This document shows, piece after piece, positions 6,424 through 29,830 of a DNA stretch of 35,452 bases (the first letter of the stretch is position 1; each line of letters begins with the position of its first letter). The position numbers and the translations under genes are program-made. The DNA comes from Candidatus Methylomirabilis sp. GTDB taxonomy: Bacteria; Patescibacteriota; DYJS01. A model generated the notes under the pieces. That model searched no databases. It saw only the letters and a list, made by a program, of their open reading frames with translations, and had not been told where the DNA came from. Location of the stretch: assembly GCA_020723005.1 (NCBI GenBank), contig DYJS01000005.1:1-35452 (forward strand). The letters are read 5' to 3'.

Positions 6424-8546
<2,123 letters not shown>

Positions 8547-26100: not shown

Positions 26101-26394
26101 TTAGTATAAAATATATTCTACTGTATTTTTAATTGCTAATGCTAAAATAACATATATCAAACCATAAATTGATGCTGAAACTGATTTTTTTGCTTTATCA
26201 ATTTTTCCTTGATCACCTTGTGCTTGAATATAATTATATCCTGCAATAACAATATAAACAACCGCAACAAGCCCTGCTATATTTATTGAAGCTTGTAATA
26301 GCGAACCAACTATAGACATAAATCCCCTACCACCCATAGGATCTCGTATTGCCGGAACAAACGATGATGATATTATAAAAAATTTTTGATACAT
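26101..26394 (-). CDS. VirB2/TrbC-like T4SS pilin-type protein (array member 5)
   Basis: 97 aa; 'GLVAVVYIVIAGYNYIQAQGDQGKIDKAKKSVSASIYGLIYVILALAIKNTVEYIL' two TM with polar GD..K.AKK turn. Confidence 0.75.
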   Translation of the reverse strand: MYQKFFIISSSFVPAIRDPMGGRGFMSIVGSLLQASINIAGLVAVVYIVIAGYNYIQAQGDQGKIDKAKKSVSASIYGLIYVILALAIKNTVEYILY

Positions 26395-26416
26395 AATAAT
26401 ATTTTAAAAATATATT

Positions 26417-26740
26417 TTATAAAGAAGAACCAAGAATTGTATATGCAATAAAATTGAACAATGATTTTGATATTGCAACAACAACGAGACCAATTATTGA
26501 ATATTCTAATGTTTTCTTAGCTTTTTCAATTGCCGAAGGTTCTCCATGGCTCATAATATAAGTATAGCCACCCCAAACAATGTATACAACTGCTACTAAA
26601 CTTGAAATATCAAAAAATAGATTAAAAAGTATTGTGATTATTTGTTCTGGAGAAGAAAATTTTGAAAATATACCAGGATTTAAAGAATTTGTTCCTATCT
26701 GTGAATTTAAATTGTGTAAAAAAAGAAATAAATTTTTCAT
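26417..26740 (-). CDS. VirB2/TrbC-like T4SS pilin-type protein (array member 4)
   Basis: 107 aa; 'SLVAVVYIVWGGYTYIMSHGEPSAIEKAKKTLEYSIIGLVVVAISKSLFNFI'. Confidence 0.75.
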   Translation of the reverse strand: MKNLFLFLHNLNSQIGTNSLNPGIFSKFSSPEQIITILFNLFFDISSLVAVVYIVWGGYTYIMSHGEPSAIEKAKKTLEYSIIGLVVVAISKSLFNFIAYTILGSSL

Positions 26741-26753
26741 CTTAAAAAATTAT

Positions 26754-27137
26754 CTAACTAATTTTAAATACCTCCATAACTGCATTTATTATAACAGATA
26801 TAAGCGTTGCAAAGATCAATGCATATGTAAGATTCATAATATATTTTTTCCCCTTCTCTTTTTGTCCAATCATATATTGATATCCTGCAATAACATATCC
26901 TATCATAGCAAAAGGAACAATTATTTTATATAATTCTTCAAAAGCATGTTGAGAGAGTGTCAAAACACAATCAAAATCATCTATCTCTCCTTCTAATTCC
27001 AAGAATGATCCATTTTTTGGAGTTGCAGAACAAGCAGAAATATTTTTTATTTGAGCAAAAAAAGAAAAAGAAAAAACTAAAATTAAAAAAACTAACCTTT
27101 TATAAATATTTTTACTAAAATTTTCTATATTATACAT
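26754..27137 (-). CDS. Pilin-like membrane protein with signal peptide and Cys-containing N-terminal segment (array member 3)
   Basis: 127 aa; hydrophobic leader LVFLILVFSFSFFAQ, then C-SATPKNGS...DFDCVL, then 'AMIGYVIAGYQYMIGQKEKGKKYIMNLTYALIFATLISVIINAVMEVF'. Confidence 0.7.
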   Translation of the reverse strand: MYNIENFSKNIYKRLVFLILVFSFSFFAQIKNISACSATPKNGSFLELEGEIDDFDCVLTLSQHAFEELYKIIVPFAMIGYVIAGYQYMIGQKEKGKKYIMNLTYALIFATLISVIINAVMEVFKIS

Positions 27138-27142
27138 TTTTT

Positions 27143-27436
27143 TTAAAAATATATTGCACCAAAGATATCAACCAAAATATATTCTATTACAACAAAAGAG
27201 CTAGCAATTATAACAAGAGCAATAAATATATCTGACATTAATGTTTTTCCTTTCTGTGCTTTTGAAGGATCTCCGTTTGCAGACATAATCAAATATCCAG
27301 CATATGCAAACATTCCAACAGCAGTTGCTCCAGCGAGTGGAAGTAAGCCTTTTTCAATTAATGCAGCAATTGCTTCGTTAAGACTCCCCAAGGTACTAGT
27401 TGGTGAAATTGTTAATGAAAAAATTTTACTAATCAT
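27143..27436 (-). CDS. VirB2/TrbC-like T4SS pilin-type protein (array member 2)
   Basis: 97 aa; 'LPLAGATAVGMFAYAGYLIMSANGDPSKAQKGKTLMSDIFIALVIIASSFVVIEYIL'. Confidence 0.75.
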   Translation of the reverse strand: MISKIFSLTISPTSTLGSLNEAIAALIEKGLLPLAGATAVGMFAYAGYLIMSANGDPSKAQKGKTLMSDIFIALVIIASSFVVIEYILVDIFGAIYF

Positions 27437-27460
27437 ATTAAAACTTTATCTTCCAAAAAT

Positions 27461-27772
27461 TTATGCCATTAATTTTGTGTTGATTGAATTCAAAACTATA
27501 CCTGAAAGCCCCAAAATAATAACTCCCTGTATAGATCTGAAAAGCTCTTTTTTTGCTTCTGTTAATGCTTGTTCTGACCCATTTTCAAATACAATCTTAA
27601 CAATTGCGATCCCTGCAGTTATTGCAGAATATACAAAGCCTGATGCAACCAAAATATTTGCAACAGCCGTTACCCATTGTCCAAAATTATTTACAGATGA
27701 TAATCCACCAATAGGAACAGATAATTTATATGAAAATAATTTAAAAATTTGAAACGATAAAAAACTAATCAT
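27461..27772 (-). CDS. VirB2/TrbC-like T4SS pilin-type protein (array member 1)
   Basis: 103 aa; 'NILVASGFVYSAITAGIAIVKIVFENGSEQALTEAKKELFRSIQGVIILGLSGIVLNSI'. Confidence 0.7.
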   Translation of the reverse strand: MISFLSFQIFKLFSYKLSVPIGGLSSVNNFGQWVTAVANILVASGFVYSAITAGIAIVKIVFENGSEQALTEAKKELFRSIQGVIILGLSGIVLNSINTKLMA

Positions 27773-27835
27773 AATATTTTTCTCGCTTTACTTTAATTCT
27801 TTTTTTCGTAGAAGTCAAGCAGAAATTATCTTAAA

Positions 27836-29830
27836 ATGGAAAATAATCAACAAGAAAATAATTTTAATTTAGAAATTAATAAAAACAACAAAGAAGATGA
27901 ATTGCAAAAAATATCAGAAACGAAAGAAAACATAAAATCAGTAAATGCAGAACTACATAATCCAGAAACAGACAGAATGGACTCTGAAGATATTTTATTT
28001 GAGGAAAATGAAATAAAAAAAATTTTGAAAAAAAATAATAAATCAAATTTTATAGAAAAAAATAAAAAAAATATAATTTTTCTATCATTTTTTCTCCTAC
28101 TAATCTCTTTTCTTGGAATATATTTTTTTATAAAAAATTTCTTTAACAATGGAACAAAAAAACCAAATATTGAAATCTTGATTCAAAAAAGTGAAATTCC
28201 GGCAGAATCCTCTTTTCCATGGAAGATAAAAATTAACAATTCTGGAAATGTTGATATGAAAAATATAAATCTTGAAATTAAATTTTCAACAAAGAATTTA
28301 AACATTATATCATCAGACACAGAATATACCAAAAAAGATAATGGGGTTTATTTAGTAAACATAGAAAAAATATTAAGTGGAAAAAGTTTTGAATTATCTT
28401 TAGAAGGAACAATTTCTTCTTTTCCCGGAGATTCTGGAACAATATACATAACAACAAAATATTCTCTTGAAGGAACTGATAAAGTTTTTATGATATCGGA
28501 AAACAAGAATTTCGATGTTGTTCGTCCAATAATTTTATCAGAAATTTCCTCTCTTGACCAAAACATTGCAAGTGGAGATAAAGTAAAACTTAATTTAAAG
28601 ATAATAAATAAAGAAAAAAATGAATTCAAAAATGTGTTAGTAAAATTATACACTGATAAGGAGTTTGTTATTGATGAAACCTCCCTTCCTGAAAATTTTA
28701 AAAAGATTGAAGAAGAAAATTATATCTTATTTAATTGGGAAATAGAAAATTTAATTGGAAATCGTGAAATAAAATATGAAATTCTTGGAGAGATAAAGGG
28801 AAAAGATCAAGAAAAAAAAGTTTTTTTAATTGAAACTGGAATACAAAGCAATGAAGAAGAAAATGGATTTGTTAAATTCTCTGATGACTCAATAGAAATA
28901 TTGATTTCTGCACCTGTTATTGAATCCTTTTTAGAAATAAATTCAAGTAAAGAATTTATAAATTTAGATAGAAATGAATTTGTAAAATTTAAAATTATTA
29001 TTAAAAATGAAGGAACAGAAAATGCAAAGAATCTTGTTTCGGAAATTGAAATGCCAAATTATTTTGATCTATCAAAAATTAGTGGGATATCTCCAGAGAT
29101 AAATGGTAGAAAAGTATTTATAAATTCTAAAAATTTTCCAAAATTAATTTCCCTTCCTCCAAAAGAATCAATTGAAATTGAATTTGAAATCAAATCAATA
29201 TCTGAATTTTTTGAATTAGATAATAAATCAGAAAATATATCTTTTAATATCTTTTCAACAATTTTTGAAAATGAAAAAGAGATCTCTAAAACAAATTCTG
29301 TCAAAGTTAATGTAAATTCTTATATTGATTTTCAAACAAACAAAGCTTTTTACTATAGAACAAGTTCGGATTTTCCAGAAAACAGAGGACCTATACCACC
29401 AAAGGTTAACGAAGAAACAACTTATGTAATTCATTGGGTTTTAGAAAGTGGAAGTAATGATCTAAAAAATATTGAAATATCAGATGTTTTGCTTTCCGGT
29501 GTAAAATATGAAAATTCATATTTTGTATCAAAAGGAAGTTTTGAATACGACCAAATCAATAGAAAAATTTTATGGAAAATTCCAAAAATTGAAAGTTTCA
29601 CTGGTTCAATTTCACAAAAAGAGGTAATTGAATGCTGGTTTCAAGTTAGTATTGAACCAACAATATCAGATATTGGACAAATAATTTATTTAGACAATGG
29701 ACCAAAGATAACATCTATTGATGAATTTACAGGAGAAATTATTTCAAAAAATGGAAATTCTCAAAATACAAGCATTCCAGAAGATATCAATGCAAGGAGA
29801 GAAAATATGGGTGGAATTGTCGTTGAATAA
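27836..29830 (+). CDS. Single-pass membrane protein with CARDB/DUF11-like extracellular repeats
   Basis: 664 aa; charged about 80-aa N-terminus, TM 'NIIFLSFFLLLISFLGIYFFI', then repeats such as 'FPWKIKINNSGNVDMKNINLEIKF', 'VKLNLKIINKEKNEFKNVLVKLYTDKEF', 'VKFKIIIKNEGTENAKNLVSEIEMPNYF', 'HWVLESGSNDLKNIEISDVLLSGVKY'. Confidence 0.75.
   Translation: MENNQQENNFNLEINKNNKEDELQKISETKENIKSVNAELHNPETDRMDSEDILFEENEIKKILKKNNKSNFIEKNKKNIIFLSFFLLLISFLGIYFFIKNFFNNGTKKPNIEILIQKSEIPAESSFPWKIKINNSGNVDMKNINLEIKFSTKNLNIISSDTEYTKKDNGVYLVNIEKILSGKSFELSLEGTISSFPGDSGTIYITTKYSLEGTDKVFMISENKNFDVVRPIILSEISSLDQNIASGDKVKLNLKIINKEKNEFKNVLVKLYTDKEFVIDETSLPENFKKIEEENYILFNWEIENLIGNREIKYEILGEIKGKDQEKKVFLIETGIQSNEEENGFVKFSDDSIEILISAPVIESFLEINSSKEFINLDRNEFVKFKIIIKNEGTENAKNLVSEIEMPNYFDLSKISGISPEINGRKVFINSKNFPKLISLPPKESIEIEFEIKSISEFFELDNKSENISFNIFSTIFENEKEISKTNSVKVNVNSYIDFQTNKAFYYRTSSDFPENRGPIPPKVNEETTYVIHWVLESGSNDLKNIEISDVLLSGVKYENSYFVSKGSFEYDQINRKILWKIPKIESFTGSISQKEVIECWFQVSIEPTISDIGQIIYLDNGPKITSIDEFTGEIISKNGNSQNTSIPEDINARRENMGGIVVE

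Follow-up and report, generated by a model that had tools for sequence, protein, structure and literature searches.

The window analysed here, a stretch of 35,452 nucleotides, covers the initial 35 kb of contig C15 in a genome of 749 kb (25 contigs, 91% complete), whose size and gene content point to the phylum Patescibacteria. A scan of genome contigs with the DnaB protein encoded in the window matched Clostridia only, with ~40% identity. Between its positions 26101 and 27772 the minus strand carries five consecutive ORFs of 97-127 aa, termed P5 to P1 in reading order (see the table), each of which starts with ATG and is separated from the next by 5-24 nt (24, 5, 13 and 22 nt from P5 to P1), in agreement with the coordinates, sizes and spacings given in an earlier note on this DNA. 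From this spacing we infer a single co-transcribed operon. No terminator-like site was found, and a promoter scan returned many matches in what is AT-rich DNA. The pilin genes are not preceded by any clear Shine-Dalgarno sequence (26394-27802), and their leaders are AT-rich. A divergently oriented gene, separated by 63 bp from where the array begins, encodes a DUF11-repeat protein, which has no relatives in the pilin regions examined in other genomes; it is a neighbour only, and at most a candidate member of the system.

Table. Coordinates of the features in the window and at the associated loci elsewhere in the genome
Feature	Contig, region	Coordinates	Strand	Properties
P5	C15, window	27461..27772	-	103 aa; first gene of the array; most divergent; no cleavable-type leader, no Cys
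P4	C15, window	27143..27436	-	97 aa; T4SS_pilin
P3	C15, window	26754..27137	-	127 aa; hydrophobic leader (15-31); Cys36 and Cys57 ahead of the hairpin
P2	C15, window	26417..26740	-	107 aa; T4SS_pilin, best match of the set
P1	C15, window	26101..26394	-	97 aa; T4SS_pilin; last gene of the array
DUF11-repeat protein	C15, window	27836..29830	+	664 aa; single TM (80-96); PF01345, 48.8 bits
gyrB	C15, window	6445-8457
SBP_bac_1 solute-binding protein	C11, L010	8666-10261		in the T4SS cluster, immediately ahead of PrgI
PrgI/VirB3	C11, L010	10263-11450		PrgI, 43 bits (cut-off 27)
TrsD-like protein	C11, L010	11453-12181		adjoins VirB4 and PrgI/VirB3
VirB4 ATPase, CD1110 family	C11, L010	12191-14074		384 bits (cut-off 325)
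Giant protein, taken as VirB6-like	C11, L010	14188-19860, runs off contig		at least 1891 aa; TM cluster; directly downstream of VirB4
Second array	C23, L009	9412-10650		three pilins
Last pilin of second array	C23, L009	10075-10650		long C-terminal extension with four Cys

Family assignment of the five proteins

Hydrophobicity and charge analysis revealed in each of P1-P5 two hydrophobic segments with a short polar, lysine-bearing loop between them, the identity over this hairpin being 16-41% between members. The turn GYxYI..G(D/E)xxK..KAKK, which had been claimed as common to all five, is clear in P1 and P2 only and degenerate in P3-P5. In Pfam searches P2, P1 and P4 score 52, 39.3 and 28.5 bits against T4SS_pilin (PF18895), above its curated cut-off of 26.6 bits, and P3 reaches 21.5 bits (E 2.4e-4), which is under the cut-off but significant. 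Matches to TrbC/VirB2 (PF04956, cut-off 27.9 bits), the other family named in the earlier note, are weak and sub-threshold, the best being that of P2 (19.7 bits). The description of the ORFs as pilin-type was hence correct, with PF18895 as the family.

A broader T4SS_pilin profile was seeded with thirty PF18895 domains, all from other genomes, and then iterated; with it P4 scores 52 bits. P5 and P3 score 17.0 and 11.9 bits before iteration and 19.4 (residues 35-96) and 14.9 bits after it, against best scores among shuffled controls of 9.8 (P5, 1000 shuffles) and 12.6 (P3, ~1000 shuffles). As the score of P5 stands well over its shuffle maximum, this protein is best regarded as a divergent pilin relative, called through the broader profile only; P3 would likewise be a weak member, with its Pfam E-value and its architecture as the main support. 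P5 has neither a Pfam pilin match nor an NCBIfam match and occupies a long branch in the tree, as might be expected if some members, and above all this one, were other small hairpin membrane proteins residing in a pilin operon. However, the alignment of its full-length hairpin to the pilin profile, at a score reached by none of the shuffled sequences, makes this improbable.

AF2 models, of low to moderate confidence, depict helical hairpins both for P5 (H26-64/H67-102, pLDDT 60) and for P3 (H54-89/H93-125, pLDDT 70); Foldseek searches of the PDB with these two yielded nothing significant among solved pili, the hits being generic helical bundles with E of at least 0.97. Taken as a set, P1-P5 are all two-helix hairpins that belong or are related to the T4SS_pilin family. 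PHROGs returned families of unknown function only (best, P3 to phrog_28964, E 3e-5), and the designed proteins and profilins matched in a PDB-sequence profile search were put down to composition.

Secretion genes and a second array elsewhere in the genome

The contig bearing P1-P5 has no VirB4 gene. A type IV secretion system (T4SS) set of the Patescibacteria type, with VirB4, PrgI, TrsD and a VirB6-like protein, is found in the same genome on contig C11 (L010 10263-19860), where the giant protein is taken as VirB6-like on the basis of position and TM pattern only. The search for VirB4 and VirB6 elsewhere in the genome, which the earlier note had recommended, in this way found VirB4 and a putative VirB6-like protein; for VirD4 its outcome was divided, as PF02534 has no match in the genome and PF12696 matches one protein on contig C14 (TraG-D_C), a possible relative of the coupling proteins. 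In the cluster's surroundings gyrA adjoins the virB4 genes, gyrB being in the window, and in eight other genomes gyrA occurs within the same 16 kb as a pilin array (L060, L070, L074, L078, L081, L082, L083 and L086).

A second array on contig C23 lies directly behind a gene for Amidase_2, a peptidoglycan amidase and cell-wall hydrolase. The extension of its last pilin is a possible tip or adhesion domain. When the genome was searched with a profile of its own pilins exactly eight matches emerged, namely P1-P5 and the three on C23.

The window holds no T4SS core gene, and the array and virB4 are on separate contigs, which would be compatible with an independent structure, either a membrane complex or an organelle for attachment, lacking any T4SS connection. 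We regard this as very improbable, given the VirB4, PrgI, TrsD-like and VirB6-like genes in the same genome and the frequent location of pilins in this phylum at a distance from virB4 (they are near virB4 in only 1135/1948 assemblies; PMC12102498). Of the two settings that had been envisaged for the array, the genes on C11 contradict the first, an apparatus for export or attachment that stands alone; nor is the array, which is encoded apart from virB4, the edge of the larger T4SS locus.

Pilin arrays and positional relatedness across the phylum

Of 192 genomes drawn evenly from across the phylum, 189 have genes with PF18895. Arrays of at least four pilins, and up to ten, number 41 in the 63 regions inspected, a count that is not a frequency, since the choice of regions (60 with strong pilin matches, a short contig and both loci of the present genome) favours arrays. 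Of 279 pilins, 106 have two or more cysteines ahead of the hairpin, mostly following a signal-peptide-like leader, so that P3, whose leader and two cysteines had been pointed out in the earlier note, does have these features and represents a common type. C-terminal extensions of more than 40 residues are seen in 56 of the 279. Pilin domains also occur within very long ORFs (1239, 2954, 606 and 702 aa) of related genomes (L058 5331-12021, L102 0-10822, L105 4826-10030), which are perhaps VirB6-like or adhesin fusions.

For 34% of the pilins the nearest relative lies in the own locus, against 1.6% expected, indicating that local duplication does occur. In the present genome P1 has its closest relative in the pilin that opens the C23 array (47% over the hairpin; paired in the tree with local support of 89, in a domain tree of 65 columns with few supported forks), whereas the nearest relatives of P2-P5 all lie in other genomes, the top relatives of P2 being the last genes of four-gene arrays. 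Across 28 families, with array positions classed as first, middle or last, relatives taken from other families only and positions shuffled within arrays, nearest relatives share their position in 127 of 206 cases (94 ± 8 by chance). This excess indicates that many of the paralogues are of long standing and have been retained at their positions, which favours specialised subunits over interchangeable variants, though the signal may in part derive from gene order inherited in wider or deeper clades and not from function.

A proposal made in PMC12102498 is that such paralogues are alternative major pilins that serve antigenic or host-range variation, comparable to the VirB2 families of Bartonella and Anaplasma. 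The high divergence within the array and the local duplication noted above accord with it. Nevertheless, the location of the nearest relatives of P2-P5 outside their own genome, the retention of array position across families and the differences in kind among members (P3 alone has a leader and cysteines, and some relatives carry long extensions) render it unlikely for P1-P5.

Proposed role of the pilin paralogues

Arrays of this kind have been described before: Quinonero-Coronel et al. 2025 (PMC12102498) reported 441 arrays of 2-11 pilins, with a mean identity of 25%, in 383 Patescibacteria assemblies and suggested a role in variation, and Wang et al. 2023 (PMC10633639) found that in S. epibionticum, the one case tested, epibiotic growth requires a pilin array and T4SS, the pilins of this species being counted as six in a 2025 review (PMC12857230). 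The idea of a multi-pilin set was accordingly right and already published, and the five-gene array belongs to a known and widespread class. It shares with the VirB2 arrays of Patescibacteria (PMC12102498), which are defined by two or more pilin genes in tandem (here five), the PF18895 domain, the range of 2-11 genes, an identity of about 25%, the chromosomal setting and VirB4, TrsD and PrgI elsewhere or nearby; there is no essential difference, four of the five members here being without a Sec-type leader. The six-pilin array of Southlakia epibionticum (PMC10633639) similarly combines several sequence-divergent pilins of one fold with the same type of T4SS, but is placed inside the T4SS cluster, whereas here five plus three genes lie away from virB4. 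The conjugative pilins VirB2/TraA and the archaeal CedA1 and TedC (PMC9905601) are likewise small two-helix hairpins that work with VirB4 and a VirB6-like protein; each of those filaments consists of one pilin, and the similarity to PF04956 is sub-threshold here. In the archaeal pili, pilins of this fold are exported with or without leader cleavage (PMC9905601), and P1, P2, P4 and P5, which have no obvious cleavable leader, resemble CedA1 in this respect, P3 with its leader being akin to TedC and VirB2.

We propose, with a probability of roughly 80%, that the five genes constitute a single operon, the VirB2-like pilin paralogues of which serve the chromosomal T4SS of the cell. The pilins would enter the membrane so that both termini face outwards and the basic loop inwards; the VirB4 ATPase would extract them from there and, on the VirB6-like channel, polymerise them to give a pilus or conduit for host-cell contact and exchange of material. 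We are less sure that the paralogues are specialised subunits (base, shaft, tip, connector) that would be co-assembled. To our knowledge, no pilus has been demonstrated for a T4SS of the Patescibacteria type. A bolder and rather doubtful extension is that hetero-polymerisation would be obligate for the pili of these systems, each array position corresponding to a distinct, anciently conserved subunit and Sec-processed, cysteine-bearing pilins being mixed with unprocessed ones, unlike in any known conjugative pilus.

As a member of its class the array is ordinary, yet it is informative and comes from a lineage of ultrasmall bacteria that has been little sampled. Few machines other than the T4SS have been shown to be required for epibiotic growth in these organisms, most of which are uncultured, and the analysis of array position addresses the question of whether the many T4SS pilins represent variants or distinct subunits. 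What the analysis adds is the position-specific relatedness of pilins across families, which points to distinct subunits.
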